Source: Symbiodinium sp. CCMP2592 (lineage: Eukaryota > Sar > Dinophyceae > Suessiales > Symbiodiniaceae). Taken from it: DNA of 64,000 nucleotides. Shown in pieces: positions 3,623-46,354 of this stretch (positions within the stretch are counted from its first letter, which is position 1; every line of letters begins with the position of its first letter). Position numbers and translations under genes: made by a program. The DNA lies in the NCBI GenBank assembly GCA_905221615.1, contig CAJNDT010000135.1, forward strand, positions 235,037 to 299,036, in the 5' to 3' direction. The notes under the pieces are model-generated. The model was given only the letters and a program-made list of their open reading frames with translations. It did no database searches and was not told where the DNA came from.

Positions 3623-4511
3623 TCAAATGACGCGATGGGGTTCCCAACGGCTATATTCCCAAAAGCCCTCTATTGATGTGAATCCCTGCCCGGGGTCCTT
3701 CTCAAAAAGGATGGAGGCGCAGCGCGCAGCCAGGGGCTGAGAGTCCCCGTCTTGCAGCCGCTGCGCAATCTGCGCGACGCGTAGGTCCAGCTCCATCGCC
3801 GAGGACGAGTGAGGGGTGAACAAGAGTGCCACCTCCTGGAAAACTGCCTTTATGATCCGGAAGTAGGAAGCCGTGTCGCCATTTTCGATGCCAGTGCTCG
3901 CGATCTCCCGAAAGGAGGACAAAGATGGAAACTGGAAGTCGTCGGTAACCAGAATTGGCAGAACCGCGCAGAAGGTCAAATAACTTGCCTGCGTCAGCCA
4001 CTCGGCGATCTGCTTGGAAGCAAGGCCGCCATCACTGCAAATGAGGACGGCACAGACCGAATCAACTGGAATTGGCTCAGCCTTTGTTAGTACTGCAAGC
4101 TTGAGACTTGAGGAGCCTATTAGAAGCGGGGCGAGCAGGTCGTACAAGACCAGAGCCGTGGCGACCGCTTCCATGTCATCGGGGTCCGCGAGGATCACTC
4201 CATCCACATCCTGGTCCTTGGAGCCCTGACAAATGCTGGTGCCTGCGGTTTGGGTAAGGCTTGCTACGACCTCATCGATGCCCTCGGCACTGACCACATT
4301 CAGTTCCAATGTTTCCAGTGTCCAGAGCCACTTCAAAGTATCGTTAACTTCTGGAAGTCCGATTCCCAAGCTGGACAAGTCTCTGATGTCACCCACGGCA
4401 TTAGCGTAGTGCCTTCTGAAGGACTCGTCGGGCATGGAGAAACCCGGAAGTGTGATGAGCAGGCTTGGTACACTTTGCTGTCTTGCTGTCACCATTTCAC
4501 CAACACACCAC
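3623..4511 (-). CDS. TIR receptor exon 6: TIR C-terminal helices and C-terminal domain
   Basis: The exon starts after an acceptor CACCTGAG at 4512. Joining it to exon 5 rebuilds the TIR motif SRKWCVGEM, with phase 2 agreeing. The Glu of WCxxE occupies the place of the catalytic glutamate of NAD-cleaving TIR domains. The remaining 260 or so residues have no family I can name. They hold a hydrophobic beta-strand pattern (AVLICSDGG, CAVLPILVTDD) that could be a second Rossmann- or TIR-like fold. The frame ends at a stop at 3623. No poly(A) signal was identified downstream. Confidence 0.8.
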
Positions 4512-7500
4512 CTCAGGTGTCGCTGAGGTACCAAAACTAATGTCCGATTCTCTCTTCTACAGTGCTCCCATGTTCAACAACTCTTACATGCTTTGCAAGA
4601 ACAAGGTGCTTGGCTGATTTGGCGCCCTCGTGTTTCGACAATTCCGGAATCCCAGAACATGCTGAAATTTGTTGGGCCCGTCATTATGGTTGGGCCACGG
4701 ACGGTTTTTGTCAGAAAGGATTCGGACTAGAACATGCAATTATGCTTGGGTCATGGGTGCTCTCCTTGCAGAAAAAGGCGCGAAAGTCCAAAACCAAGGC
4801 ACAAACAGAAAAGCAAAAAAAAAAAGTGAAAAAGGGAGTTCCAGCATAAAACGTGAACAAGAACGTACACAAGTCGAGGTTCGGACACGAAACGAGCCAA
4901 AAAAACAAAAGCAAGCAAAATCAGCATAGTCACTCCAAAAACACCTGCTGCAAAAGCCGAAGGCAGCAAAGACTTATCGCGCAGACCCAAAAGCAAAGGA
5001 GGCAAGGGGTAGGGGCGGCAGCTCAGTGGCAAGAACAACCGAGCCACTTCCGTGACAGAACTGCAGGGCTTCCGAGAATGACGACTTTCTCCACATCGTG
5101 AGCCACATGGTTGAAGAGCTTCGAGAGGTCCTTGAGGTCGTCTGAATCAATGAAGGTCTTGAACTTCGATGCACGATGCTGAAGCTCAATTTTGAGCAGG
5201 CGGGCCAAGCTGCCTGCTGCCTGCTTGTGATGGCAGAGAAAGAATGAATAGCGCTTGTGTGTCTTTGCAATGAGGTGTCTCACGAGGCCGTACAAACTCA
5301 CGAGCACGAGCAACATGGCGACGAGCACGGCGATGACCACGCATGCCAGCATGGAGCTGTAGCTGTCTGCAGAAGGGACGAACAGGGCACCGATGTCCAG
5401 GATGGTGAGCGCACCGCCATGCATCAGGAGGTCCAGGTGGGTGCTCAAACGAACACGCCAGGGCTTTACATAAGCAGAGCAACACAAGCTGAGGTAAAGG
5501 ATAAAGTTCATGGAAAGCATCCTAGCCGTCTCGGAGGGCAGTAAAGGGCAAAGTACGATCATCAAGTTGCGGAACAAGAAGACAACCGCAAAGCCTGGGT
5601 TCTTGTTAAGGGCTATCTAAGTTATCACAATAAAGAAACCATATGATTTCGTATAGATTCCTATTGTGGTAACTTACATCAGATTTCCTTAACAAGAACC
5701 CAGAAGCCCTGAGCTCCAGGTCGAAAACGCATGGCCAAGAAGGACCAGGCCCGCACAAAGTTGGCATCCGCAGCCCTTACCTTCCGAGGGAACTCGATGA
5801 CAATCACCCAGGCACACACCGACAAGAAGGCTAAGGGCGCCAAAAGGGCAAATGCCCCGTACAAGCACATCTGCAGATGAATTCCTTGCCCATCACAGAA
5901 AACATCGGGGTAGTCATCGATGGTGTACAGGCCATTCGGATGCTCCTTGCATCGAAAAGGTCGGAGCAGCAGCGAACAAGCGGCAATGAAGAAGAGCACT
6001 GCCAGAAATCCCAGGGAACGTCCAAACAGGCGAAGGGGTACCTCCTTGCCGCCTGACCTTCGCACTTTGCTGTACACGACATGGGTCACGGCCAACACTG
6101 CAACCAGGCAACACGGGATGGCGAACGACTGTATGACGAAAAGTGACAGTGTGGGAACCTCCGCAAAGCATCTGATGGAGCTGAAGGAACTGAGCAGCAC
6201 ATCGAAGGCAACAACGTCCAGCATCTTCAGCAATGTCAGGAAGGGCTCGCCCCACTTCACCCCGAACTGCCTGATAATGAGCAACAGCTGTGCAAAGGTT
6301 ACGACTTGACCCATGCCTATTCCGGCAAGGACCAGCGGACGCGATTGACTTCTGTTGCCGGCCCAGATCATCACTAAATGCCATGTGACCGCAAACACAA
6401 GCAGCATCACTCCAATACCCGCCGCCACGATGTAGTCATTGCTGAAGCAGGCCACACACTCACCACGGATATCATCCTCGCGCCAACCCGGCAAGCAGCT
6501 GGCGCAAGCAATGCTTTGGTTGTCGCGGCCTCGGGCAATTTCGGGCTTCGGCTTCAGAAGTGCCATGCCAGTCCGGAGCCTTCACAAAGGCCCTGGGCCC
6601 CTCAGGGGCCACCCCGAAACACCTCAAAAAAGCCTCGGAAGCCCCAGCCCTGCCGCTCTGCCTCTGGCACAGGAGCCCGGGGAGCCACCGGGGCAGCGCT
6701 CCGGGAGCTTATGGCACTCCTGGGATCGGGAAAAGGGAACGCAGATGCACACACCTTCCCTTGGCTGAATATGGCTGAATATATAGCAGTATAGCAGTCG
6801 ATAGCCCCACGATGTCTTCAGAGCATTGCTGGTCGATGCAATGCTGACGGTATTGCAATACCCGGATGCAGCTATAGAACGAACAGCACAAAGACACTTC
6901 CAAAGCTCAAACTCCACTCCTGGGCACCTCCTCCAACTATATGTACAGCCCAACCTAGACCAAGACCTCAACGTCCCTGAAACTCTTCGCCAGGGCTCGA
7001 AGACGGCACCCGGGCTCTCGTTCGACGCATAGAAGCCTGGGCGCAGCTGGAGCTCCCCCGAGCCAGGGCAGACAGAGCCCATCGGACAGTCCTCCAACGA
7101 GCTTGGGTTTGGAAATGAAACAGGAATTATGGGCTTGGGGGTTTGGGGTTCAAAATGGTTCAAAAAGAAGGCTTTGCGGTTTGTGGAATTTGTGGGTACA
7201 GCAACAGCACTACTTAAGAAAACATTGGATTAAGAAAATGAGACTCTGGATTTTGCGATTGATAGGGTTCTATATAAAATACCAAGCACGGTTAAAATAA
7301 GAAAACCAGGGTACCCTCGTCCGCGAGTCTCATGTTCTTATTTCGTTCTGTCATACTAGTGCGCGTAAACTAGGCCTGTGCTGTATGAGGGATACCATAC
7401 ATCAGGGGCCTTTGCCTAACATCCTAGCCCTAGTACTTGGGGTGTCCTAGGCACTTCGTGCCTTGACCCTGCTGAAGTTTCCCCTCCAATGCTTCCAAGC

Positions 7501-10207
7501 ACGGCTTTCAGGGATCGTAGGCATCCTCCTGGTCTTTAGCTGGGTTCTGGAACGAAGGAGAATAAGAAAATGCCAGAGTCTCGTTTTCTTATTTAGGTGG
7601 GTTCTGGAACGAAGGAAAATAAGAAAATGCCAGAGTCTCAGAGTCTCGGTTTCTTATTTAGGTGGGTTCTGGAACGAAGGAGAATAAGAAAATGCCAGAG
7701 TCTCGTTTTCTGATTTAGGTGGGTTCTGGAACGAAGGAGAATAAGAAAATGCCAGAGTCTCGTTTTCTGATTTAGGTGGGTTCTGGGACGAAGGAGAATA
7801 AGAAAATGCCAGAGTGTCGTTTTCTTATTTAGGTGGGTTCTGGAACGAAGGAAAATAAGAAAATGCCAGAGTCTCAGAGTCTCGGTTTCTTATTTAGGTG
7901 GGTTCTGGAACGAAGGAGAATAAGAAAATGCCAGAGTCTCGTTTTCTGATTTAGGTGGGTTCTGGAACGAAGGAGAATAAGAAAATGCCAGAGTCTCGTT
8001 TTCTTATTTAGGTGGGTTCTAGAACGAAGGAGAATAAGATAATGTCAGAGTCTCGTTGTCATATTTAGGTGGGTTCTAGAACGAAGGAGAAAAAGAAAAT
8101 GCCAGAGTCTCAGAGTCTCGTTTTCTTATTTAGGTGGGTTCTAGAACGGGCCCTGGACATAGCTATTATCAGAAAACGGCCTTAAGAAAACCAGACTACC
8201 CTGACCCATCCCAGAGTAAATATTCCCATAAAACCAGCCGCTATCAAAATAAGAAAACCAGACCACCCTCGTCCCAGAAAGTATTTTCTTATACAGCGCT
8301 CCCGCTGTAGTGGAGTTGATGGTCACAACTACAGGAGAAAAGTCCATCTGCGACTAGCTAAGGCTTAGTGGTTCGTCATCACAGATCACAAGTGAAAGCG
8401 GTCGTCCGTGTATCCCGCAAGGAAATGAAACAAAATCAATATGGAAGAACCCTCTCTAAATTCATTCCTCGATGCTAGCTGCAGAGAAAGACATTCGGAC
8501 GTCCTGGCAGCGGCCGTCACTGAGATAAGTTCCGGCGATGCAACGGCAAAGGAGCTGTGAGGGTGCCCCACGCACGGCGACCCACTTCTCGCCGGTGGAG
8601 GTGTTCAGGCACTCGCTGGTCGTCCACCTCTCGTCTCCACAAAGGCTGCACTCTGTGAGGCCGCTTCTGTTTGCGAAGGAGCCAGGAGCACAAAATTCGC
8701 ATTCTGTGGAGCCGTTGACAGCGGAAATCTTGCCGGCCTCGCAAGCTACGCAGGCGGTCTCACCTGCCAGCTGCTGATATCGCCCGCTTTGACAAAAGAC
8801 ACAGCGGCGCGTGCTTCCGCTGCTGTCATCGAAGGCCTCTGAAAATGTCCCTGCGGGGCACATCCTGCACTCCGATGCCCTCGAGCGGGACGACAGGAAC
8901 AGGCCTTCTTTGTCGACAACTCCAGAGCCTGCAGTGCATTGGGTACGAAGAGGGACGACTTGGCGCCAGCTGCTGTCCCGTCGTAGCCAGTTGCAAGCCA
9001 CATCATACGTACTATTTCCAGTCTCCATCTGGCCAATAGCTTCTTGGACGTCATCTCGGTTGAAAGTCAGGTCGCTGAGCATCGCATGCACCAGCGGACT
9101 CTTCTCTTGCAGGTCGGCGCTGACCATTTTCAGGATCTGTGTGGAGGCTGGTGCCGTCCTTCGGTTCCCTGCTTCCCACTCTGCCGCACTGAAGCGGGGG
9201 AAGAGGATGGCCTCCGGGTTCATGGTGACGAAGGTCCCATCAGGTAGCCACCAGTAGAAGAGCACCCTTAGGTTCTCAACATAGTAGACGTACCTGTCAA
9301 AGTCATCGACGATGCCAATGGCAACAGGAAGAGCATAGGCAGCCGAGCGATGCATGAAGGACGGGAGCAGCCAGCCATAGCTGCCACTTGTAAGGAGTGG
9401 AATGCATTGGGTGACGTCGTGCCTGCAAGCTGGGGACGGCCACCAGTGGTTGCCGTGACATTTTGCCACGTAGTTCGGGCCTTCATCTCCAGGAACCTCC
9501 TGGACCCCATCAGTGTCGCCAGACCACTTGACATATTCCGCAAGCCTTCCATGGTGCACCCAGTTCGTCCCGGCCGTGTCGCAAGCAACCAAATCGGGCA
9601 GGAGTACATCTTCGATACTGTCGAACAGGGCTCGCACGGCGCTGGCATGGGAGAGGCTTGCATTGTATGTGCGGTGGTAGTCCAGGGTCAACCCTGCAGA
9701 TTGATAAGCAAAATCTTGGACCTCACGCTTCACGAAGAGGTACTCCTCACCCACGAAGCCAATTCCTCCAAGACTTACCGGCGCGTGCTGTGGGAACAGC
9801 CTCTCGAGAGTGGCAGGTGCATCTTGCAAGGCCGAGGTGTAGATATCCAGAGCCACATGGATTCTCGTATCCTCGCCGCAGCCCTCCAGGCTGGCTTCGC
9901 CCAGATTAAAGTCGCGACAGCCCACCAAAGCGTAGAGGGCCGTCCAAGACCCGGAAGCTCTCACAGAATGGACGTAAGTGCGATACCCCAAGACCTCTGC
10001 AGTTACAATTTGAGCAAACTGTGTCAACAGCTGCGCCGAGGACCAGTCGGCTTCCACAAACCCAACCGGGAGGTCAGCACCTCGATTGTCTTGCAAGAAA
10101 TATCTATCTGCTTCGGGAATGCCATCTTCCAAGCAAAGACCGCGAGAACCTATCAGGAAGCTGGGTACGAGCAGAATCACCGACCATGTGCGAAATGCCT
10201 TGGGCAT
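3623..10207 (-). CDS. OpuAC-like / GCC2-GCC3 cysteine-rich / multi-TM / TIR receptor-like protein, six exons
   Basis: Proposed join on the minus strand: 8504-10207, 6999-7091, 6662-6719, 5708-6529, 5048-5594, 3623-4511. These exons sum to 4,113 bases with no frame break, giving about 1,370 residues. Order of domains: signal peptide (1-25, MPKAFRTW then a hydrophobic run); an OpuAC-type compatible-solute binding domain (about 45-425); cysteine-rich repeats like GCC2/GCC3 or ephrin-receptor-like motifs (about 430-650); about eight or nine membrane segments (650-1000); a cytosolic TIR domain (about 1007-1110, FFLCHHK, FIDSDDL, KVVILGSP, SRKWCVGE); and a C-terminal alpha/beta region of about 260 residues. 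The layout suggests a cell-surface sensor of a betaine-like solute that signals through TIR. That role is inference; the domains are read from sequence. Intron boundaries are GA-AG, GA-AG, GC-AG, GC-AG and GT-AG. Confidence 0.8.
5048..5594 (-). CDS. TIR receptor exon 5: last membrane segments and N-terminal half of TIR
   Basis: Translation begins FAVVFLFRN after the 113-bp introner intron and contains three or four hydrophobic stretches (for example MLACVVIAVLVAMLLVLVS). A basic stop-transfer HLIAKTHKRY then leads into the TIR beta-A strand YSFFLCHHK. The exon ends after CGGAA with a canonical GT donor at 5047. Confidence 0.82.
5595..5707 (-). mobile_element. Introner-like inverted-repeat element forming intron 4 of the TIR receptor gene
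   Basis: The intron is almost entirely a small inverted-repeat element. Its ends are CTGGGTTCTTGTTAAGG and CCTTAACAAGAACCCAG, a perfect 17-bp inverted repeat, with inner arms GTTACCACAATA / TATTGTGATAAC. The short direct repeat GGCTT occurs on both flanks, in CAGGGCTTC and CAGGCTTTG, as expected of a target-site duplication. Splicing with a GC donor at 5707 and an AG acceptor at 5595 restores the frame exactly (RPGAQ-GFAVV). This fits the introner model of DNA transposons that make introns on insertion. Confidence 0.8.
5708..6529 (-). CDS. TIR receptor exon 4: last cysteine motif and five membrane segments
   Basis: Starts at acceptor CCCGAG (6530) as RDNQSIACASC. It finishes the cysteine-rich region with CASCLPGW and ECVACF, then runs through hydrophobic segments such as IVAAGIGVMLLVFAV, VVTFAQLLLII, FAIPCCLVAVLAV, FLAVLFFIAACSLLL and YGAFALLAPLAFLSV. 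A GTAAGG at 5780 looks like a perfect donor, but using it would lose the frame with exon 5. Reading on to 5708 keeps it. Confidence 0.82.
6662..6719 (-). CDS. TIR receptor exon 3: 58-bp micro-exon of the cysteine-rich region
   Basis: Encodes ECHKLPERCPGGSPGSCARG and nothing else. It is flanked by an acceptor ATCCCAG and a GC donor (AGAG|GCAGAG). The phase matches exon 4 (GCC AGA G + GC CGC), and GAGGC is repeated at both junctions. The CPGG...CARG spacing is typical of GCC2/GCC3-type cysteine repeats. Confidence 0.8.
6999..7091 (-). CDS. TIR receptor exon 2: 93-bp exon of the cysteine-rich region
   Basis: 31 codons beginning DCPMGSVCPGSGELQLRPGF, phase 0 at both ends. Joined to exon 1 it gives RCQ-DCPMGSVCPG, a natural continuation of the cysteine array. 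Both neighbouring introns would use GA donors (CAG|GAC and TTC|GAG). The sequences AGGAC and GAG are repeated at the paired junctions, so the exact cut is ambiguous by a few bases while the product is not. Confidence 0.75.
7538..8150 (+). repeat. Higher-order tandem repeat (57/65-bp units) in intron 1 of the TIR receptor gene
   Basis: Unit starts (AGGTGGGTTCTGG or close) fall at 7538, 7595, 7660, 7717, 7774, 7831, 7896, 7953, 8010, 8067 and 8132. The spacings are 57, 65, 57, 57, 57, 65, 57, 57, 57, 65, so four units make a 236-bp higher-order repeat. The 65-bp units differ by an extra CAGAGTCT. Units at 7595 and 7831 also share private variants (GGAAAATAAG, CTCGGTTTC), confirming block duplication. 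Each unit contains the palindromic arms AATAAGAAAA and TTTTCTTATT around a 13-bp loop. Confidence 0.9.
8504..10207 (-). CDS. TIR receptor exon 1: signal peptide, OpuAC-like binding domain, first cysteine repeats
   Basis: A true ATG at 10207 gives MPKAFRTW followed by a hydrophobic signal sequence. The OpuAC-like region opens with LPVGFVEADWSSAQLLTQF and closes with the family-like tail KSPLVHAMLSD, FNRDDVQEAI, VACNWLRRDSSWRQ. Cysteine repeats follow (CRMCPAGTFSEA, CVFCQSGRYQ, CVACEAGKI, CEFCAPGSF, CSLCGDE, CRCIAGTY). The frame stays open to a stop at 8462, but cutting after CAG (8504) fuses cleanly to exon 2. The ligand is unknown; glycine betaine, choline or a related osmolyte is inferred only from the family. 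Confidence 0.82.
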
Positions 10208-26790: not shown

Positions 26791-28553
26791 TCATCCATGA
26801 GCTTCGCAGCCTTGGCCGCCGACCCACCGCAAGCAGGCCGTCTCTGGTTGGCTGGTCAGAAGTATCACAAGAACGCCATAGGGAAGGCACACTGCCGGGA
26901 CGCCCAAGACGAGCCCCGTCATCACAGCGCTCGACTTCCAGTCCCTCTTCCGCCTCTGGGCATCTGCCTTTTGGCGGGGGATCAAAGGGAGCGCACACGC
27001 ACCGAGCATGGAGGCCGTGTAGGTCAGCACGTAAGACCATGCGACCGTAGTTCGAAAGCTAGGCAAGTCCGCAGCATAATTCTCCGGCTTCGACAAGGAT
27101 GGTGTGAAGAGGCTGGAGAGTTGATTGCTCACGGCCGTGGAGACGGGCTGGCTGGAGTGCATAACGGTTCCGATGAGACCATAGCACAAGCCCTCCTGTC
27201 CAGGTTCCGAGAGCTCGATGACCATCAGGTTCAGGACCAGGGCCAGGGCTGTTGTGGGCACAGCCGCCACGACCTCCTCGCCAAGGTAGAAGTACTGGTC
27301 ACGAATCACATCGAAGACGGCCAAGAAGGTTGGGATTGCATCAGTGATTGTCACCGTCACAATGGCAATGAGGATTGCCCTTCGCCAACAAGACTGGAGG
27401 AAGTACACCTTGTACGCCGCCGTGGCCAACATCATCACGAACATGCCGCTCATCTGGAAGAGCTGTTGTTGCAAGACCTTCACCTGGACCCACTGGTAGC
27501 GGACCATGGGCCCTGCTGTGGTTGTAATGCCGGAGAAGAACTGGCTGATGAAGGCGAACAAGAGTACGCTGGAGAGGCACTTGCTTTTGACCAGGTGCCT
27601 CGGTCGAGAAGCACAGCGAGGCTTCACCAAGGCTGTGTAACCCTACCAAGAGCTAAGCCCTGAGCCTGCCTATGGCCTATGGTGCAAGCAAGCTTCCATG
27701 AGGACTCCAAATGCGCCTTCAACGTCGGGCGCTCCACCTTGCGGGGCTCGTGCACGCAGCAGGCACAGACTACGAGGAGCACAGCAGAGATGCAAAAGCA
27801 GAGCGTCATCAGGCCGTTGAAAGACAGACTCCAGTCGAAGGTGCCCAAGTATTCCTTGCCGTTCATGAAGAAGGCAATGACCACGGACGAAGCAAGCGAG
27901 CCTGCCATCGTGACGATGGTGAACTCTGCCTTCATCTTACCACGACTCATCAGCGGCTCTCGCTGCGAGTACTCCAATAGCAAGCCCTCTCCGGCCACAC
28001 AGCCCATCTGAACACCTGCGACAAGAATGAACATGGGGAAGACGTACCAATTCTTCTCCTTGTGGATGCTTGGATTGCACGGAGGCGAGAGCGTGTCGTA
28101 GGTGCCGTCAGGAAACTGACAGTAATACGGCGGAGGCAGAGGCCATACGCTCATGACCAACAGCGCACCACCGCACAACACCCACGACGCCAGGAAATAA
28201 GGTTTCCTGTTCTGACCACAGATGGGGAGGCAGTCGTTCATCATTCCGAAGGGAAGAAGCAGCACTTGTGGAAGCTTCATGAGGGCGGTGACAGACATCA
28301 TCACGTTTGAGTCCAATCCCATGTAGCCGAGGAAGAACCCATAAGAAACACCCATCACGGTGGCGTTCAGGAAGGCAAGAAAGAAGCCACCGAGTGGCAA
28401 GCCGCAGGTGCGCCATGTCCAAAGGCTGATGGAGTCCTCATCTCCAGATTCTTCAGAGGTGGACTCTTCTGATGAAGTTGGAGCCTCCGCATCAGACTTG
28501 GATGATGGTTTTACAGGCTCTGGTGCACGCGGGGCGAAGAGATAGTCCTCCAA
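26791..28553 (-). CDS. Folate/biopterin-transporter-like (BT1/MFS) membrane protein, two visible exons
   Basis: Join of 27694-28553 and 26791-27598 through a 95-bp GC-AG intron (GGAA|GCTTGC ... CCGAG|GCACC) gives SSWK-HLVKSKC in frame. An acidic, serine-rich cytosolic N-terminus precedes about twelve membrane segments. The block VTALMKLPQVLLLPFGMMND then CLPICGQNRKPY matches the loop and amphipathic-helix signature of the BT1 folate/biopterin transporter family. Substrate is unknown; many dinoflagellate members are uncharacterised. No ATG precedes the frame. It opens at an in-frame stop near 28,590, so a 5' exon must supply the start, possibly the repeat-containing frame around 28,810-28,950. 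The stop is at 26791. Confidence 0.78.
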
Positions 28554-28825
28554 GTCCTCGGTCGCGCACAGACCCTCATCTTTGCTTTTTCAAGCTTAAA
28601 GCCGTACCCCTGAGACCTTTGCAAGGGGCAAGTGAAGTTGCGGTCGAATGCGAAACAGTCTACGTTGTCAGTATCTCTGGACACAACTTTTTCATGCTGT
28701 CCCAACACAGCTGGTGCCATCTCCAAATTTCTGACAAAGGCACGTTTATGGCTCCAGCCTCCAGGGGACTCGTCTGTCTCACAAAAGCTGTCGATCTTAC
28801 CGGCACCGGCGCGATCTGATGTCCG

Positions 28826-36083: not shown

Positions 36084-39000
36084 CTAGTCCGCGCCGAGTG
36101 ACAAAGCCAACGACACTGCGTTGGGCGGCAAAAATTGGCGCTCTGCGCCAAGCCGTTGTGTCTCCTCCCACCAGTCTCTGCTGGGGCCATCAGCTATGTT
36201 GCTGTCTGTGGGGACTCGAAAGAAAGCGGCCCTGCACTGCAGGGATTCTTCGAAGTCCACCGCCTGCGAGACTATCGCAGCTCCTTCCACCTTGCGTGTG
36301 AAGGCCTTGTGCAGGGAGGTACGCGCTGCGTCGTTGTCTATCCAGACGAACAGGTCGCTGCCTGCTATGTGCTTAGCCCACATTTGCAGGCTGAGCAAGT
36401 AGGGCAACAGCTCGCACTCGTAGACGAGCTGCTGCTTCTGAGCTCTGGCGGCCCACTGGGCTGTGACTTGGCTGCTGATCTGCAGCCCCCAGGTGAAGGC
36501 GATGCCTTCTCCGATGAGCACTGCCCCGAGGCCACACTTGGGCACGAGTCTTGGGGTCTCCCACTCGCAGGCCCCGTCGATGTAAAGGTGCACTTTGCGG
36601 CGTGCATGGATGGACACTGTCCTGGGCGGTCCGTGCACGACTCTCTGCAGCAGAAACGCCATGGCTTGGCATTGCTGCTCTGTTAGGGGGACTTGCTCTG
36701 GTCCATCCCCAAGAACGTCGCCTACGCAGATCACTGCCATGCGAGTGTTACGACCCCAGGCTTGCTGCTCAGCGAAAATGAGCCTGCCGCGCAGGCTCTG
36801 CGCTTCCAAAGGGGACATGCTTCCGCGGGCGAGGGCCTCGCTGAGGACCAACCCCAGCTCTGCTGCGCGGGTTGGCTTGTTGCTCACTGAGATTTCCCCG
36901 AGGTGCTGCTTGGACAAGTCCACTCGCACGCCTAGCACGTCAAAGACTTCGCTGAAGTCTGCGTTCTTCTTGGGCTCTGTGGCCACTTGCCAACCCAGCT
37001 TGTGAAAAAGGTTGGACACTGCCAACGTGACGAGCTTTGAATGCGCGCTGCGCGTAAGGACGGTGAAGTCGTCGAAGAAGCTTGTCATGACTAAGGCAAG
37101 CTTTTCGCGGCCGATGGCTTTGAGCGCTTCGCTGCAGCGGAGGAAAGCGTGCACGGCGGCAACGGCGCCGAAAGGCATGCTATGCAGGTGGGCGATTTTG
37201 ACCTTCCCACTCTGTGGGTCCAGCATGACGATGCACGCGAATTTCTTGTGTGCGGCCTGCACTGCAAGCTGCTTGTAGGCACTCTTAAGGTCCCAGGTCC
37301 TGCCTACAATGCGGTGGGCCCGCTCTGCGGGAACACCTTGGCGAAGCCACTCCAGGCACACTGCAAGAAGCTCGTCGATGCTATCGACTTGGACCTTCTC
37401 TGTGGTCCCACAGCAGCTGTTAATGAAGCTGCTTTTGAAGTTATCAATGGGGCGCACTTTGCCCTTTTGAACGACGCCGAAACGGGACGATACTATCGTC
37501 TCGTGCAGCTGCCCTGGTGAGAAGTCTTCCAGTGAGAGCCAGCCCTGCTGGCCTTCCTCCATAGTGCTTTCCCAGACCCTGTCTGAGATCCCGTCTTGCG
37601 AGGGGCGCAGAGCGCTGCGAACACCTCGCATGCTGATGCTTTGGGCGTTTTCCAGTAGTGACTTCTCGTCTAGAGAAGGTGGCAAAATCTGCACTGGCCA
37701 CAACCCACTGGGTTGTATCCAGCCAAGCAGGGGAAAGCCTTCTCGCACCTGCTGGGCCAAAGTCTTGTCCGGAAAGTCGATTTCGTTCAGAAGCTTTGCT
37801 AAAGCTACTGTCTGCTTGGGCTTGGTGACGCTGTTCACCTGAGCATCAATCGACGAACGTACCTCGGTCTCGCGGACTTGGCACTCTGTGCAAGTTCGAG
37901 AGATATGCATGGATGCCACCGTGCGGCGCTTGGCCAGCAGGACAGTGTCCTCGTGTACCTCGGCGGCAATGGCACGCTTCAGGGATAGAGGCACTGCCTC
38001 GATGTCCCTGGCTGGGTGATCGATCAGGTGCGCTCTGCGCACCCAGTGTAGAGGCTGAAGCGGGATGGCGATGATGGCTTTCTGGGAGGCTTCAATCCAC
38101 TGGATGAGCCTTGAGCCTTTTGGGAAGCAAGTCCACGACTGTGGAAGCTTCTGCGGAGTCTTCCAGCCTCGAAAGCACCGCCCTGCGGGGCCTTGGAGAG
38201 TGACTTTGTCACTGAAGTCTGGCTCGTAGCGTAGACGACGCAGTCGCTTGCGACTGAGAGGCGCTGCCCGGAGTGCTGCTGCGCATTGGTCGGCCGCGAG
38301 GGAAACCCAGACGGAACTCAACTGAGTGGTGTAGGCGCTTTCTAGGGATGTGGACCACACTGTGGAACCATCCACTGAGGCTCTGCCCCACGGCAGGTGT
38401 TTGTGGCCTCCGTCGCAGTCTCTGCTCAGACCTGCGAACCAATCCAAGTTGGAGAGGATTGCGGTACGTTTGCGGCGCATGCTGCCGAACATGCACGAGT
38501 CAAACTCTACTCTGTGAGCTGACTGCAAGGCCTCTCTGAGGCAAGGCATCCTCCACAGGAGGCTACGAGCTGGATTTTCTATGGACCAGCAAACGCCGCG
38601 CTGAGACAGGGAGTGGCAACACTGTGCCATAAAAGCGACTAGGCTGTTCGCGCTGCGAACTCGCGCGGCGTCGGCTCCTTTGAGGCCTTTAAGGCCCGCT
38701 GGGCGCGCTTCGCTGCGCAAGGGGCCTGGAGCTCCCGGCCTGGGAATCTCTCTAGCTCTGCTAAAGGTGCCGCACGGGGGGGCCCAGTGGACCCATCTCA
38801 AATCTTGGTGTGAGAGCACTGCTCTCAGCAAGTTGCGGCCCAACTGGGTGCAAAGGTCGAGCTGAAGGACCTTGAGGCCTCTGGCCTTGGTCCTGTGATC
38901 CACGGCGATATTCGAGAAACCTTTCTCGATGGCTGCCTTACTAAGGCGACCGAGGCCGCAGAAAACTTCCACAAAAAGCGGAGGCCGAGGGGTCGCTTGC

Positions 39001-39305
39001 GAAGCCGGCTCGGGAAGAGTAACGCTCCGAGCGTTGTCTGCCAACACGCTGTGCTGTTCGGACAAGAGGAGCACTGGGGGCTCGGCGTTAAGCGCGGGCG
39101 CGGCGTCGTGAGACGGCGCAGCGGTGGCACGTCCTGGCTTACTTGTTGCAGGCGAGTGCAGAGGCGGTGCCGAGGCCAAAGGGTCAGGGCTCTGCCCTGA
39201 AGGAAAAGCAATGGCGGAAGAACCCAGCGCTGCTGGGATAAGAGCTGCAGGCCCTGTCTCTGAGGGCTGTTGCGGCTCTGCCGCGCTTGGTGCAAGGGTG
39301 CCTAG
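36084..39305 (-). CDS. Pol-like polyprotein: C5-methyltransferase-like domain, reverse transcriptase, RNase H
   Basis: The frame is open from 39305 to a stop at 36084, directly after the Gag-like stop codon and in the same phase. The first ATG lies far inside (VAFMAQCC), beyond the first methyltransferase motifs. An N-terminal SAM-methyltransferase-like domain (about 38,980-38,250) shows motif I FVEVFCGLGRLSKA, motif IV WAPPCGTFSRARE with the candidate catalytic Cys, motif VI WSIENPARSL and a motif-VIII-like GSMRRKRTAIL. The RT follows (about 37,500-36,900): VRPIDNFKSS, DLKSAYKQLAV (motif A Asp), MPFGAVAAVHAFLR (motif B), SFFDDFTVL (motif C). RNase H is C-terminal (about 36,540-36,180), with LYIDGACEWE, YECELLPYLLS and VWIDNDAART. 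It would copy the element's RNA. The methyltransferase may act on element or host DNA; that is inference. Confidence 0.88.
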   Translation of the reverse strand, partial: LGTLAPSAAEPQQPSETGPAALIPAALGSSAIAFPSGQSPDPLASAPPLHSPATSKPGRATAAPSHDAAPALNAEPPVLLLSEQHSVLADNARSVTLPEPASQATPRPPLFVEVFCGLGRLSKAAIEKGFSNIAVDHRTKARGLKVLQLDLCTQLGRNLLRAVLSHQDLRWVHWAPPCGTFSRAREIPRPGAPGPLRSEARPAGLKGLKGADAARVRSANSLVAFMAQCCHSLSQRGVCWSIENPARSLLWRMPCLREALQSAHRVEFDSCMFGSMRRKRTAILSNLDWFAGLSRDCDGGHKHLPWGRASVDGSTVWSTSLESAYTTQLSSVWVSLAADQCAAALRAAPLSRKRLRRLRYEPDFSDKVTLQGPAGRCFRGWKTPQKLPQSWTCFPKGSRLIQWIEASQKAIIAIPLQPLHWVRRAHLIDHPARDIEAVPLSLKRAIAAEVHEDTVLLAKRRTVASMHISRTCTECQVRETEVRSSIDAQVNSVTKPKQTVALAKLLNEIDFPDKTLAQQVREGFPLLGWIQPSGLWPVQILPPSLDEKSLLENAQSISMRGVRSALRPSQDGISDRVWESTMEEGQQGWLSLEDFSPGQLHETIVSSRFGVVQKGKVRPIDNFKSSFINSCCGTTEKVQVDSIDELLAVCLEWLRQGVPAERAHRIVGRTWDLKSAYKQLAVQAAHKKFACIVMLDPQSGKVKIAHLHSMPFGAVAAVHAFLRCSEALKAIGREKLALVMTSFFDDFTVLTRSAHSKLVTLAVSNLFHKLGWQVATEPKKNADFSEVFDVLGVRVDLSKQHLGEISVSNKPTRAAELGLVLSEALARGSMSPLEAQSLRGRLIFAEQQAWGRNTRMAVICVGDVLGDGPEQVPLTEQQCQAMAFLLQRVVHGPPRTVSIHARRKVHLYIDGACEWETPRLVPKCGLGAVLIGEGIAFTWGLQISSQVTAQWAARAQKQQLVYECELLPYLLSLQMWAKHIAGSDLFVWIDNDAARTSLHKAFTRKVEGAAIVSQAVDFEESLQCRAAFFRVPTDSNIADGPSRDWWEETQRLGAERQFLPPNAVSLALSLGAD

Positions 39306-39310
39306 TCAGG
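39301..39310 (-). promoter_or_regulatory. Candidate UGA stop-codon readthrough site (UGA CUAG)
   Basis: The Gag-like frame ends GCC GCC TGA CTA GGC and the same frame is then open for 1,073 codons through the methyltransferase, RT and RNase H. UGA followed by CUA is an established leaky context in animal viral and cellular mRNAs. Two short stem-loops lie downstream, GC-rich CCCAGC/GCTGGG at 39223-39237 and TCAGGGC/GCCCTGA at 39184-39200. Confidence 0.6.
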
Positions 39311-40562
39311 CGGCCCCTGCATTCTTTGGGCAATCTGCGGCTCCGTGGTCGGTGCTGCCGCAGCTCATGCACTGGTGCAACCCCCTGTCGCACTGCTTGG
39401 GGGAGCCGGAGGTCTCGAGGTCGCACCCGCACTGCAGGTTGAAGCCGTAGCAGAGGCGCTTGCCAGACTTTGAAACACTGTTCAAGTGGCGAAGCTCTTT
39501 AGGCATGCTCGGCGGCCTGGCGCGGTCTGCGCTCTCATGGCGCTTGCCCTTGCCCTTTCCGCGGCCTTTCTTGCCGCCTTTCTTACCTTTGCCGGTCGTG
39601 CTACGACTGCGGTCTTCTTCGTTGCGCGCCGAGCTGCGGCCTTTGCCCTTGCGACCCCTGTCCGCCACTGGCGAGGGGAGCAGGTGAAGCGTAACAATTG
39701 GATCGGACCACATGTTCTCTACTAGAGAATCTAGTGGCCTCTTACCATCCTTGTCCGGCTTGCACCCTTTGCGACACTCTCGCGCGAGCAGCGTCCACAG
39801 TTCTTTGTCGGCCCGTACTACGTGCCAGCTGTTGCCGCGTTCCATCCCCGGCGGCGCTGGCCGGTTCAGGACGGAGAAAAACTGTCTCACGAGTCTCTCG
39901 TGAATTGTGAAATCCAACACGCCGACTCTGTCGAGCGCGAGACCTCGGCGCGTCAGCGCCTGCGTGAGCTTTAGCTCATTGCCGATCTCCACGTGCACGC
40001 TGTGCTCCTTTTTCTTTACCGTGATCTCCCCAGACTCTAGGGAGAGGAAGTCCTTGTCACGCCTCACTGAGGCGATCTCTGCATCCCGGCTGACGCACTG
40101 CGACGGCGGGATGTAACGGACGATGCCGTCCTGCAGCATGAGCGCGGCCTTGTCCACGAGGCTGTTCGCGGGGTCGTAGTCACCTTCGATGACGACGCCC
40201 TTGAGGCGCGCAACTTGCGCGGCTCGGCGCTCCTCGCGCTCGTGCAGGGGCAGGCTCTTTGGGGTGACGCTGTCACCCTCGACCCTCATCTTCAGATCCT
40301 GGATACTGAAGGTGAGGCTTTCGAAGGCCAGGCGCCGCGCTGCGGCCTTGGTGCCTAAGGTCGGCTCTGCCGCCCCGAAGACCTTCTTGATGAGTTCTTC
40401 AAACTTCGCATCGCTGATGCGATCGGGTTGGTCGGCGACGCTGTAAGCGAGCGTGCCGAAGGTGCGGATGTCTGCCGCAAGGAGCTTCGCCGACTCGGCG
40501 GCTCCTAGGAGCTGTCCAGCTCTGCTGGAGAATTCCGCGACGCTGTCGACGAGGTTTGCCAT
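39306..40562 (-). CDS. Gag-like protein with CCHC zinc knuckle
   Basis: The ATG at 40562 (MANLVDSVAEF) gives 418 residues, ending UGA at 39306. The C-terminus holds the zinc knuckle CMSCGSTDHGAADC (CX2CX4HX4C), preceded by a basic Lys/Gly/Arg-rich tract (KGKKGGKKGRGKGKGKR). Both are typical of nucleic-acid-binding Gag proteins. The N-terminal two thirds is acidic/helical with no named domain. Immediately upstream is a pyrimidine tract ending TTGCCCTGCAG|GACAATGG, which looks like a splice or trans-splice acceptor 5 bases before the ATG. Confidence 0.8.
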   Translation of the reverse strand: MANLVDSVAEFSSRAGQLLGAAESAKLLAADIRTFGTLAYSVADQPDRISDAKFEELIKKVFGAAEPTLGTKAAARRLAFESLTFSIQDLKMRVEGDSVTPKSLPLHEREERRAAQVARLKGVVIEGDYDPANSLVDKAALMLQDGIVRYIPPSQCVSRDAEIASVRRDKDFLSLESGEITVKKKEHSVHVEIGNELKLTQALTRRGLALDRVGVLDFTIHERLVRQFFSVLNRPAPPGMERGNSWHVVRADKELWTLLARECRKGCKPDKDGKRPLDSLVENMWSDPIVTLHLLPSPVADRGRKGKGRSSARNEEDRSRSTTGKGKKGGKKGRGKGKGKRHESADRARPPSMPKELRHLNSVSKSGKRLCYGFNLQCGCDLETSGSPKQCDRGLHQCMSCGSTDHGAADCPKNAGAA

Positions 40563-40665
40563 TGTCCTGCAGGGCAAGAGAAGAAAACAGAGAGAGAGAG
40601 ACACACACACTGTGCAGACTGCGGGACCCTACTAGGACAGACAGGCGCAAGAACTCGCTCTCTTT

Positions 40666-42531
40666 TCACTCTGCATCGAAAGACTTGCTGCTCCAGCACG
40701 TCTTGCAGTGAGGCCGGCCCGGGGCCAGGTCGCGAACTTCGCAACTCTTATACTTTTCATTCAAACAGCGACCACAGAGAAGCCTCTTGGCATTCTCGCC
40801 GCGACTCGCGTGGAGCTTGCCACTGGCAAGATGACACCACGAAACGGCCCAGTCCGGGAGAGTGCACTGCACCTCCCTCCTGAGGCGAGGGTGCTCCTCT
40901 ACCTCGGGCTCGGCGACGAACTCGTCTTCTCTGTCAGTGTCACTGGCACTGTCCTCTGTGTCGCTGAGCTCCTGCTGCTGCGAAACCTTCAGGGCTTCCA
41001 CCCCCACTGGGGGTGCCGAGCCAGAGGAGGTTTTCCGGTGAGAAACCTTGCTAAGGTTCTCTCGCCTCAGGTTGAGCTGGCTGCTTGGCAGCGCGAATTG
41101 TTTCCCGAGCGGCTGGTCGGGAAGGAAGTCGCCATCTCTGATGGCAATGAGAACTTCCTCCAGAGCCCGCGCTGCGGGGATGAGCACGTTACGGCTGTAC
41201 GTCTCAGTGCTCCGAGCACTGTCGTGCACATGGTGGGCGAGGAGCCTGCGCAGATCCAGGTTGACGCCAGCTTGCGAGGCCCACGTGAGGCAGGTCGCTT
41301 TGAGACTGTGACTGCTAAGGCGCTCTGCGTCTTCGCAGCCGGCGTTGGACAGCGCGCTGCGCAGCCAGGAGGTAATCTCTTGAGAGTTCATCGGGCGATC
41401 CGCTAGATCACCATCCGATGTGAAAGCAGGGATCACTGACCCGAGCGGGATGTCTCCACTGGAGATGAGGCCCAACTTTTCTCGATTTGCGAGCCACTGA
41501 CTCACCCAAGACTCTTCGAAGAAAACTACCGGGGCTACTAGCGGGAGCAGCAGGCGGCTTCTAGCCCCTACGGCTGTTTTCGCCTTGTGAACATTCGCCT
41601 GCATCCACACTGTGGCGCAGGGGTCCTCTGGGAGCTCAACCGAAAAGGAGGCAACTCGGGCCGCGTCACTGGCACGGGCGCATGCGAAGAGCATGAACAA
41701 CAAGCCCCCAGACACGACACTGTCGTACACAGAGCCAGACAGCGCGATGCGCTCAAGAGTAGCCACCTCCGAGGCCTTAAGGGCGGGGGCCCGTTTGGGC
41801 GGAGGCGCGCTGGCTTCCGTGCTCTTACAAAGGCCCACGATACGGGAGCTGGTCACCTCCGACTCGAAGGAAAGACCGAAAACTCCCGAGCACCAGTTCA
41901 GACTCTGAATCAGGCTAGAGGGGCTGCTAGCCCCTTTCCCATTCCTCATCATCCACTGGATGTATCGCCAGGTGGCGCGCTCTGATACTGGGAAGGGCAC
42001 CACCACTGGGTCTTGGCAGTTTGCCCACTGGACAAAATTGCTGAGGGAGTTGAGACGACGAACCACTGTGTTGGTGGCTTTGTAGCTGAGCGCTGCTTCT
42101 ATGCTGAAGTCGAGCTCGTCCAGGTCGACGCAACCGGCTTCGTCAGCACACTGTGAGACGATCTCGAAGGCCTCTGGCCAGGCTTTTACCAAAGCCGTCA
42201 GTTTGAAAACCGCGCTTTCGCGGCGGTCGCCTTCGTACGCTGTACGACGGCAGCACACCTTAAGTGCGAAGGCTGTGTCTTCCGCTACTAGCGGCTGGGT
42301 GCTAGCGGAAGCTTTCCGCTTAAGCATCAGGCTTGACTCGTGCAGCACTGGCACGGGGCCCACGGAGGCGGGGCGAGTCACTGACAGCTCCCAGGGCCAG
42401 CTTGCATTGCGCGCAAACCATGAAGCTGATTCCCACGGCTGACGAGCACCGGCTCGGCGTGGTATAGACGACCAAAGGTTACTAACCTGGTCGTTGAAAT
42501 CGCCCTCTGGGGCGCTGCCCCTGGGCAGCAT
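40666..42531 (-). CDS. Tyrosine recombinase
   Basis: The ATG at 42531 (MLPRGSAPEGDFND) gives 621 residues. A SAM-like core-binding region (SNFVQWANCQDP, WRYIQWMMRNGKG) precedes the catalytic domain. Catalytic-box candidates are Arg in LFACARASDAARVAS, Lys in HKAKTAVGARSR, HxxK in SSHSLKATCLTWAS (where most recombinases have HxxR), His in RRLLAHHVHD and the nucleophile Tyr in STETYSRN. A C-terminal extension has CGRCLNEK and HCKTCW zinc-ribbon-like pairs. It would insert the circular cDNA of the element. It is placed 5' of Gag and RT, an unusual order. Confidence 0.85.
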   Translation of the reverse strand: MLPRGSAPEGDFNDQVSNLWSSIPRRAGARQPWESASWFARNASWPWELSVTRPASVGPVPVLHESSLMLKRKASASTQPLVAEDTAFALKVCCRRTAYEGDRRESAVFKLTALVKAWPEAFEIVSQCADEAGCVDLDELDFSIEAALSYKATNTVVRRLNSLSNFVQWANCQDPVVVPFPVSERATWRYIQWMMRNGKGASSPSSLIQSLNWCSGVFGLSFESEVTSSRIVGLCKSTEASAPPPKRAPALKASEVATLERIALSGSVYDSVVSGGLLFMLFACARASDAARVASFSVELPEDPCATVWMQANVHKAKTAVGARSRLLLPLVAPVVFFEESWVSQWLANREKLGLISSGDIPLGSVIPAFTSDGDLADRPMNSQEITSWLRSALSNAGCEDAERLSSHSLKATCLTWASQAGVNLDLRRLLAHHVHDSARSTETYSRNVLIPAARALEEVLIAIRDGDFLPDQPLGKQFALPSSQLNLRRENLSKVSHRKTSSGSAPPVGVEALKVSQQQELSDTEDSASDTDREDEFVAEPEVEEHPRLRREVQCTLPDWAVSWCHLASGKLHASRGENAKRLLCGRCLNEKYKSCEVRDLAPGRPHCKTCWSSKSFDAE

Positions 42532-43156
42532 CCTTGACACAAGGAAGGGGAGCACTGCTCAAGCCAGCGGCTGTTGTCCAGGCGGCTCTCAAGAAAAGGC
42601 TACCAGCACACGAACACAAGTGCACTCACTCTGGAAAGCTCGATTCAAGCGACGCGCTGCGACCCGCACCCTCCCATTCAGTCCTGAGGGAGGAGAGGAG
42701 GAAAAAAGAGAGCTGGGAAGAGTGAGGCTTAAAAGGCTGCGGTAAAAACGCATTTAAGAGCGCAGACTCAGAAGGTGACACTGCACTTAGAGTTACCTCA
42801 AAGGACCTACCAGGTCTCGGGGCACTGCGCACAAACCTACTAGGCAAGAAGAGCCTACTAGGCAAAAGAAGCTTCAGTCCTACAAGGTCTGTGTGCACAC
42901 GCAACCTGCGGTGTTCTTTTTACCAACCTCGCGATGCGAGTCTCTGGGCGGAGCCCGGTTGTCGAGGTGCGCTGCACCTGCCTTCTGCGATCCGCAGACA
43001 GGCCGGTGAGCAGCGAAGGCTCTTGTGGCCGGACTGTGCCGGCACTGCTGTGCTCTGCACCTGTGTGAGAAAGGGCGCAGACGGAAGGGCCACTGGCCCG
43101 TCAAAAAATTTATCCGAACACTGTTCGGAATGCGCTGGATTACGCCGCTGGCGTAT

Positions 43157-44545
43157 CTACCACTCTCGATGGTTCCAGCGTCGGTCGTGGTCCCAAGACC
43201 AACGACCACGGGACCACTGGTCCCGGTCCTCGTCGTCACGGCGGGACCTCTGGTCCTTGCCTTTGCCTTTGCCCTTGCCGTCTCTGCGGCGGGACTCCCG
43301 TTCGCGGTGCTCGCGCTCACGGGCTTCGGCTGCCTCGCGCTGCAAGGTCAGCCGAAGGGACTCGGGCGGCCCCCTAGTAGGGCGGCGCTCGCCACGGTAC
43401 TCGAGCTTGCCGTCTGTCCGCGGGACAGTGCCTGGGCAAGAGTAATTTTTCGCGCAGCGTGTGCAATGCATCACGCCGCACTCTGGACACTGCCAGGCCT
43501 TGCTGCGACGCTCGTGGGAAAACTGTCCCACAGCGCCACTGGCGCTAGGCTGATCGTAGGCATGCACTGCAGCCACGAAGGGGTGGAGCTCTCCGCATGC
43601 GCTGCATACGAATTCCGAAGACGGATCGCTCCAAATGTTCATCTGCATGTTGTCGCAGACTGAACATGCGAAGACTCGCTGAATCTCCCCCGCTCGGGGA
43701 CGCTCCGCCGCTGGCGGGCGAGCTTCCTGATCGTCTCGATCAGCGGTGTCATCTGACGCCGGGCCGCTGGCCCGGGTCCCAGCGACGCCAGCTGGGTTGT
43801 TGCGCGGGGGCTGCTGACAGGGACGCGGGCGAGAGCTCTCCCCACGACGCGCCACTGGCGGCGGGGGGGGCCGCTTGTTCTGGCGTGGGGCGGAGGCCTT
43901 CGGTGGCGCCGCTGGCGCCTGATCCCTGTCAGCTGCCGGCACTGCCGGGCTGGAGGACTTGCGCGCCACCTTGCCCTGAAGGGGAGGGTGCGGCTGCGCT
44001 GGCGGTGGCGGGGAGTCGCTCTCCGACTCCGACTCTTCCGAGCGGGAGCCTTGGTCGTCTTCGGTTTCATCCCGCCGCCCGCTGGGCTCCTCCACATCCA
44101 TATCCTCCGGCGCTGCCGAGGGAGCTTCCGCTGGAAGCGGTTCTTCTTTGACGCCCGAACCCGCTTCCTCAGCGGGGCTGGTCGGGGAGCGGCGCTGCGA
44201 GGCCGGCGCTGCGGCCGACGTGGGAGACGCGTTTGCCACCGCGCTGCGGTGGTCTTCGGAAGACACACCACGGGCCGCCGCTGGCGGCTCGGTGTTCGCA
44301 GGAACCACTGGGGGCTCGTAGCCCAAAAGAAGTCGCTGAAGAGCGACGGCATTGGCCTCTGAGCCGCCACTGGCGGGCTTGGTCCAGCCGGCGAGTTCCG
44401 CTGCCTCCGCCGCATTGACCACCACGTCCCCTATCTCTGATAGGGAGACGGCGGCTTCGTAGATGGCGGCCCTCTGGGCCTCCGGCACTGCACTGAGCGC
44501 CTGCAGCATCTGCTCGTTCGTTGGGTTCGCCATCGCTGATAGCAT
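43157..44545 (-). CDS. Element ORF2: proline/serine-rich protein with zinc-ribbon-like Cys pairs
   Basis: In-frame ATGs at 44545 (MLSAMANPTNEQM) and 44533 are both possible starts, giving about 460 residues. The N-terminus is helical (QALSAVPEAQRAAIYEAAV), the middle is a long disordered Pro/Ala/Ser/Glu region. The C-terminal third has FACSVCDNM...FVCSACGELH and CPECGVMHCTRCAKNYSC, two probable zinc-binding folds. The tail is very basic Arg/Asp-Arg-rich (GKGKGKDQRSRRDDEDRD). Nucleic-acid binding is likely; the function is unknown. It could be an additional Gag-like subunit. Confidence 0.6.
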   Translation of the reverse strand: MLSAMANPTNEQMLQALSAVPEAQRAAIYEAAVSLSEIGDVVVNAAEAAELAGWTKPASGGSEANAVALQRLLLGYEPPVVPANTEPPAAARGVSSEDHRSAVANASPTSAAAPASQRRSPTSPAEEAGSGVKEEPLPAEAPSAAPEDMDVEEPSGRRDETEDDQGSRSEESESESDSPPPPAQPHPPLQGKVARKSSSPAVPAADRDQAPAAPPKASAPRQNKRPPPPPVARRGESSRPRPCQQPPRNNPAGVAGTRASGPASDDTADRDDQEARPPAAERPRAGEIQRVFACSVCDNMQMNIWSDPSSEFVCSACGELHPFVAAVHAYDQPSASGAVGQFSHERRSKAWQCPECGVMHCTRCAKNYSCPGTVPRTDGKLEYRGERRPTRGPPESLRLTLQREAAEAREREHRERESRRRDGKGKGKGKDQRSRRDDEDRDQWSRGRWSWDHDRRWNHREW

Positions 44546-44891
44546 ACAAAGGCTGTTAGCTGAAGGCACGAAAGGGGCGACTTACTAAGCTGAAAAGGCT
44601 GCGGAAGAAAAGCACTGCTTGAAAACCGACACGGTTCAAAGAGCTGACTCAGCTGGAGAGACCTACCAGGCTCGCGTGACACACGACTGAAACAGGCGAG
44701 CAGCAGGCTTTTGCCGCATTTGAAATTATGCCGTCGGCTCGCCGCTGTGGGCGAGGTTCCAAAAACCTCGGAGACGCCCGCCCTGCAGAGGCTGCCGAAC
44801 TGTCGGCGGCGAAGCAAAAAGAGGTGCACTGCACCAGAAGTGACTATGGCGACTCACTGAGAAGCTAGCAGCTGCGCACTGCGCTCAGAGC

Positions 44892-46271: not shown

Positions 46272-46354
46272 AACTGTCACTGACAGCTATAAAAAGGGGA
46301 GTGGAAGGACGTCGCTGACGACCCCCACTGCTGCGGAGCACTACAAGATACTCT

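Follow-up and report, generated by a model that had tools for sequence, protein, structure and literature searches.

A candidate osmolyte receptor with an OpuAC-type binding domain, a multi-pass membrane region and a TIR domain in the dinoflagellate Symbiodinium sp. CCMP2592

We analyzed a stretch of 64,000 nucleotides of the dinoflagellate Symbiodinium sp. CCMP2592 (GenBank assembly GCA_905221615.1, contig CAJNDT010000135.1, positions 235,037 to 299,036 of the forward strand), termed the window in the following. At positions 3623..10207 (stop codon included) it carries a gene for a protein in which an OpuAC-type binding domain is followed by a Cys-rich stalk, a membrane region with several passes and a TIR domain; all coordinates given for this gene are those of the window on the minus strand. 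An earlier note on this DNA had proposed that six exons join here without a frame break into about 1,370 residues. When the exons were rebuilt and joined, the resulting reading frame was stop-free and comprised 1,370 residues. Exon 1 (8504..10207) encodes a signal-like stretch, the binding domain and the first Cys-rich repeats, exon 2 (6999..7091) and exon 3 (6662..6719) encode parts of the Cys-rich stalk, and exon 4 (5708..6529) covers the end of the stalk and the start of the membrane region. The final membrane helices and the start of the TIR domain are encoded by exon 5 (5048..5594); exon 6 (3623..4511) encodes the remainder of the TIR domain, which runs to about residue 1110, and then a C-terminal block that belongs to no known family. 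Residues 1-23 (10139..10207) form a hydrophobic stretch resembling a signal peptide, as suggested by a hydropathy peak at residues 8-26.

The five junctions lie at residues 568, 599, 618, 892, and 1075 and are separated by introns of 113-1412 bp. The donors are in this order GA, GA, GC, GC, and GT, the acceptors are all AG, and several exon ends can be shifted by a few bases with the protein unchanged. All five joins were bridged by frames of paralogs, which we searched for in the strain's own genome (1.098 Gb, 5,383 contigs). In paralog L061, 608 residues can be read without a stop across the junctions at 568, 599, 618, and 892, and a stop-free frame of 650 residues in paralog L047 crosses those at 618, 892, and 1075. 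Counting as bridging each one-frame tblastn match without a stop within 15 residues of the junction, we found 10, 9, 11, 14, and 11 bridging rows for junctions 1 to 5, respectively, numbers in which two genes fetched twice were counted twice (L049 = L054, L047 = L058). The predicted gene model was thus confirmed, and the paralogs lent additional support to the architecture of binding domain, Cys repeats, membrane segments and TIR domain in one protein, which the earlier note had likewise claimed.

Intron 4 (5595..5707) is introner-like, with an inverted repeat over its length (77% across 114 positions), and a partial 52-bp match to it was seen in the window at 2510-2560. Inverted repeats are carried by dinoflagellate introners. 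Introners are mentioned for dinoflagellates in a passage of PMC11453091, which also reports GC or GA donors for 25-74% of the introns of Symbiodiniaceae, and an excerpt of PMC5177918 names GA among the predominant donors in two of three Symbiodinium genomes. The GA and GC donors, the introner-like intron 4 and the genome size of 1.098 Gb are consistent with a dinoflagellate origin of the gene. Intron 1 holds a 57-bp minisatellite of about 10 copies (7535-8148).

The binding domain comprises residues 24-425 (8933..10138) and includes a Cys-containing middle (about residues 205-312) without a match to the bacterial profile described below. Pfam OpuAC (PF04069), which the earlier note had named, was matched above its curated cut-off of 21.2 bits by the whole protein (22.4 bits) and by the domain alone (26.6 bits); the match spans residues 315-409 and falls within the last third of the Pfam profile. 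A bacterial OpuAC profile was built from ProX and 15 plasmid-borne relatives (16 sequences, hand-chosen from 60 listed rows). Against this profile the C-lobe scored 30.5 bits (best shuffle 4.8) and the N-lobe 7.5 bits (best shuffle 6.6), the latter being a low score with a small margin; in both cases none of 1000 shuffles reached the score. A profile of ten dinoflagellate sequences, i.e., the window and nine of 29 other fetched loci, matched the bacterial profile with P 2.4e-17 over 292 columns. In the PDB, this dinoflagellate profile found nine entries at E ≤ 1, with 7yle as the best (1.4e-5). Six of the nine had E ≤ 0.01 and belong to betaine- or choline-type systems; five are so named, and the sixth, 7ahc, is labelled in the PDB listing merely 'ABC transporter permease subunit' and is presumably OpuA. 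The best matches were 7yle, 2b4l (OpuAC), 3l6g, 7ahc, 2reg (choline-binding), and 4xz6.

Three aromatic residues of the window protein align with W65, W140, and W188 (mature numbering) of E. coli ProX, which we take to be the tryptophans of its betaine pocket. Y123 (9839..9841) lies opposite W65 and W320 (9248..9250) opposite W188, both in two of two single-sequence and in three of three family-level alignments. W279 (9371..9373) lies opposite W140 in all three family-level alignments and elsewhere in two single-sequence alignments. Among nine paralogs, the W65 column is aromatic in eight, the W188 column holds Trp in seven and Phe in one, and the W140 column holds Trp in six. The sequence profiles and the mostly kept pocket aromatics support the assignment to the betaine/choline type that had been made before. 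Relatives of exon 1 were absent from the viral contigs, prokaryote genomes and phages searched.

The Cys-rich repeats that begin in exon 1 (8504..8932) were assigned to Ephrin_rec_like (PF07699; 33.9 bits, cut-off 23.1) in three stretches, the best of which covers residues 492-531. The family GCC2_GCC3, to which the repeats had previously been attributed, was not matched in Pfam and has to be replaced by Ephrin_rec_like. In the PDB, exon 1 had one match at E ≤ 10, to the mastigoneme protein Mst1, and this match falls within these repeats.

Hydropathy analysis indicated about nine membrane helices. In a hand-made topology model with nine helices, in which the hydrophobic stretch 715-733 was kept outside, the inner loops and the tail contain 2, 5, 6, 2, and 4 Lys/Arg residues and the outer loops 0, 4, 3, 0, and 0. 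Three of the four invariant cysteines of the membrane region are located in outer loops of this model and the fourth in a helix. Seven N-glycosylation sequons occur in residues 24-648 and one in residues 1000-1370. Such a topology would place the binding domain outside and the TIR domain in the cytosol. The membrane region scored 52.3 bits against a profile of the paralogs L018, L019, L020, and L026, while 1000 shuffles reached at most 7.9, and a profile-profile comparison with the same four gave P 1.1e-22. L026 passes the Pfam family TRP (PF06011) with 31.3 bits at a cut-off of 28.5, and weak matches were obtained for L018 (14.9 bits) and the TIR-bearing L062 (13.9 bits). In a scan of seven members, PF06011, which we take to be the fungal FLC-like TRP family, was matched by three, the window protein not being among them. 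A search of the PDB with the membrane-region profile gave no match at E ≤ 10. Judged by these profile comparisons, the membrane part is homologous to TRP-type paralogs, a point that is new relative to the earlier note.

Within a 168-residue piece, five TIR-type models from three libraries matched one common stretch, namely NCBIfam ThcB4 (E 1.3e-5) and retron-TIR (0.017), PADLOC ThsB (0.0029), and Pfam TIR (0.013) and TIR_2 (0.023). Paralog L050, which aligns with the window protein along the domain, reached 38.0 bits with TIR_2 at a cut-off of 28. TIR_2 was found at E ≤ 0.1 in five of 12 aligned members (best 2.7e-9); this alignment left out L052 (the window's own copy), the duplicates L054 and L058, and the short L061. 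When the PDB was searched with the paralog TIR profile, SARM1/TIR-1 accounted for 19 of 21 rows. In the paralog and SARM1 alignments, E1080 (4496..4498) in W-C-V-G-E is located opposite the glutamate of W-V-H-K-E in SARM1, presumably the catalytic residue needed for cleavage of nicotinamide adenine dinucleotide (NAD+), i.e., NADase activity. Of the ten rows reaching the W-C-x-x-E stretch, nine hold Glu and one (L057) Asp. PF01582 gave no match at E 0.001 in the own genome because, as we assume, the domain is too divergent for this model. The TIR domain claimed before is therefore borne out at the level of the family, by L050, the SARM1 matches and the glutamate, but in the window protein itself TIR and TIR_2 remain below their cut-offs.

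The C-terminal block (residues 1111-1370, 3626-4405) is kept in the TIR-bearing paralogs and belongs to no known family. A second TIR repeat, which visual inspection had suggested for this block, was rejected, as the local alignment was at shuffle level (901 of 2000, with softer gaps 620 of 2000). Weak matches to T3SS_ExsE and EPS_sugtrans, both below cut-off, were taken as chance. Relatives of exon 6 were not found in the viral contigs searched.

In the own genome, at least 80 places matched exon 1 and at least 43 matched exon 5. When neighbouring matches were merged, with gaps of up to 3.5 kb for the binding domain and up to 1.5 kb for exon 5 chosen by us, these yielded 46 binding-domain clusters and 37 exon-5 clusters, 36 of which extend into the TIR part. 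Of these 37, 19 (the window's own cluster among them) are preceded on the same strand by a binding-domain match at a distance of at most 12 kb, in 17 cases of at most 4.4 kb, while about 0.009 such clusters would be expected by chance. On contig C5022, three clusters with binding domain and TIR stand in tandem over about 40 kb.

Two paralogs encode the TIR-bearing architecture in uninterrupted frames with other ectodomains. L063 (contig C72, plus strand, L063:1138-5454) comprises 1,439 residues, and its N-terminal part is of the phosphate-binding type (PBP_like_2, 68.8 bits at a cut-off of 27; PDB phosphate-binding protein 4jwo, E 7.7e-12). L062 (contig C360, minus strand, L062:1904-5245) comprises 1,114 residues and starts with a partial ANF-receptor-type domain (ANF_receptor, 28.4 bits at a cut-off of 25.4, covering only profile positions 274-347 of 353); its front may reside in an exon outside the frame read. 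With L062 as query, 57 places were found, and several of them match its front part on other contigs. In both proteins a Cys-rich part precedes the same membrane and TIR parts, which were recognized by the membrane-part profile (L062 130.1 bits, L063 103.3; best of 800 shuffles 5.8) and by the family's own TIR profile (L062 74.3 bits, L063 47.6; best of 800 shuffles 6.1).

Other paralogs apparently lack the TIR domain. L018, L020, and L021, which lie within about 13 kb on contig C1890, as well as L019 (contig C1269) and L026 (contig C3813) have uninterrupted frames of 1,126 to 1,159 residues, and these three contigs were absent among the exon-5 matches. L064, the L018 gene extended as far as its stop codon, has stalk and membrane part and no match to the TIR profile; the frames of L019, L020, L021, and L026 were read except for the last 80-110 residues. 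Since the ectodomains differ in L062 and L063 and L064 is devoid of a TIR-profile match, the receptor family looks modular at both ends.

Sequence comparison has thus shown that a single frame encodes first the OpuAC-type domain, then the Cys-rich stalk and the multi-pass membrane region, and finally the TIR domain, and that this arrangement recurs in paralogs. The most economical reading of this architecture would be a surface receptor that couples an osmolyte to TIR signalling. We consider it fairly probable that the gene encodes such a chemoreceptor, composed of a betaine-type cage, stalk, membrane part and NAD+-cleaving tail. The binding domain on the outside would close on a small quaternary-ammonium or sulfonium osmolyte, a ligand class suggested by the pocket, such as glycine betaine, choline, dimethylsulfoniopropionate (DMSP) or a similar compound, which would be held by the aromatic cage Y123/W279/W320. 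Closure would be relayed by the stalk to the membrane region, which would bring cytosolic TIR domains together, and the clustered TIR domains would signal, probably via NAD+ cleavage at E1080. The likeliest use would be the sensing of salt stress or of osmolytes from neighbours, hosts, prey or lysed cells.

Several observations weigh against this receptor. With respect to the ligand, the Pfam OpuAC match covers only positions 172-256 of 257 of the profile, residues 205-312 were no better than shuffles against the bacterial profile (149 of 1000 reached their score), the W65 position is occupied by Tyr in the window protein, the partner of W140 depends on the alignment and is unstable with the window sequence alone, and paralog L036 is without all three pocket aromatics. 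For the TIR domain, all TIR-type models with a curated cut-off scored below it in the window protein (TIR 15.7 bits at a cut-off of 21.3, TIR_2 15.6 at 28), the full-length protein showed TIR_2 alone (E 0.089), Pfam gave no TIR at E ≤ 0.1 for L059, L062, and L063, and the best PDB E-value of the TIR profile was 0.021. The membrane region of the window protein itself is not matched by PF06011, and 18 of the 37 exon-5 clusters are without a binding-domain match within 12 kb, two of these bearing other ectodomains. Structure prediction, which the earlier note had proposed, gave unusable models: the single-sequence AlphaFold runs covered exon 1 and a section of the C-terminal block and reached pLDDT (predicted local distance difference test) values of 34 and 38, respectively.

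Foremost among the alternatives is a TRP-like cation channel gated by a ligand, in which the binding domain would gate a Ca2+-permeable pore and the TIR domain would be a scaffold or regulator and not an NADase. We regard it as rather unlikely, and it is not exclusive with the receptor described above; channel activity and NADase activity are both predicted properties. A channel would agree with the occurrence of paralogs having binding domain, stalk and membrane part apparently without TIR (L064 and those on C1890, C1269, and C3813), because of which the TIR domain seems dispensable in the family, with the homology of the window's membrane part to L026 and its like, with the weak TRP match of L062, and with the Asp that replaces the TIR glutamate in L057. 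However, this glutamate is otherwise kept, PF06011 does not extend to the membrane part of the window protein, and the membrane profile remained without a counterpart in the PDB. Much less probable is a role in osmolyte uptake or capture, in which the binding domain would hand betaine or DMSP to the membrane part for transport and signalling would be secondary: OpuAC domains serve uptake in bacteria and the pocket aromatics are mostly kept, but the Pfam scan of the window protein matched no permease or ATPase domain of ATP-binding cassette (ABC) transporters, the membrane part has relatives among TRP-type paralogs, and TIR tails are not known to take part in uptake. That two adjacent genes were mistaken for one, or that unrelated exons were joined by chance, as the intron sizes and the four of five donors other than GT might suggest, is scarcely credible and already contradicted by the paralogs, since every junction is crossed by their stop-free frames and L062 and L063 each encode all four parts, from the binding domain to the TIR domain, in one frame.

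Compared with known systems, the domain resembles bacterial OpuAC, ProX, and ChoX (PF04069) in its two collinear lobes and in the mostly retained pocket aromatics, but differs from them by being built into a protein that crosses the membrane several times and carries a TIR tail, by its unmatched Cys-containing middle and by the lack of matched ABC transporter parts. The TIR core and its W-x-x-x-E-x-V-T-A stretch are shared with SARM1 and TIR-1, and the best sequence models, ThcB4 and ThsB, are those of bacterial Thoeris TIR domains. Unlike in all of these, the TIR domain of the window protein is part of a membrane protein with a binding domain and is followed by an extra C-terminal block, and in contrast to SARM1 no SAM or ARM match was obtained in the Pfam scan. 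Toll-like receptors are alike in outline (ligand-binding part, membrane part, TIR), but they have one membrane helix instead of about nine, and the window protein, which is without a match to leucine-rich repeats, is not a member of this group. The use of a bacterial-type periplasmic binding domain as receptor ectodomain is known from ionotropic glutamate receptors, insect ionotropic receptors and class C G protein-coupled receptors. A weak likeness to the latter is seen in the Cys-rich part, where exon 1 alone scored 21.4 bits with NCD3G at a cut-off of 38.9, whereas no Lig_chan or 7tm_3 match was found in the Pfam scan of the window protein and the other end of the protein is formed by a TIR domain. 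With the TRP family PF06011 the protein is linked by the homology of its membrane part to paralogs including L026, although it is itself unmatched.

Elsewhere in the window, several long open frames are located on the minus strand at 36087-46286, two of which show weak matches, below cut-off, to reverse transcriptase and tyrosine recombinase (Phage_integrase); this region is possibly a DIRS-like element. Two overlapping open frames at 26794-28589 on the minus strand match BT1 transporters with 24.5 bits (cut-off 22) and 18 bits. Rfam and tRNA scans of the window gave no match.

To our knowledge, this combination of domains has not been described, and such proteins may carry automatic labels in databases. 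The literature searched, with most subscription journals outside its reach, shows no report of such a receptor; the domains are individually known, and their combination is apparently new. According to passages of a preprint (PMC13142454), six of 13 TIR clades are purely eukaryotic and none of these six is characterised; they describe few SARM1-like TIR domains, with sources including dinoflagellates, and several uncharacterised eukaryotic TIR clades, and the word 'periplasmic' is absent from the main text. The TIR proteins in the relevant part of PMC4083563 are cnidarian, and the passage on glycine betaine in PMC5299600 concerns the opuD transporter within a section on corals.

It is quite possible, although we stop short of calling it probable, that the genes described here represent a dinoflagellate receptor superfamily, in which exchangeable betaine/choline, phosphate and ANF/amino-acid domains would be mounted on a chassis of stalk, TRP-like membrane part and SARM1-like TIR and would couple nutrient and osmolyte levels directly to TIR (NAD-based) signalling. 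We know of hardly any dinoflagellate receptors for dissolved osmolytes and nutrients, although the exchange of betaines and DMSP is important for coral symbiosis as well as for the ecology of plankton. If our interpretation is correct, the family would provide concrete, testable receptors for betaines and DMSP in dinoflagellates, would add a multi-pass membrane class to the TIR receptors, and would represent a further use of periplasmic binding domains in eukaryotic sensors beside the glutamate receptors and class C G protein-coupled receptors.

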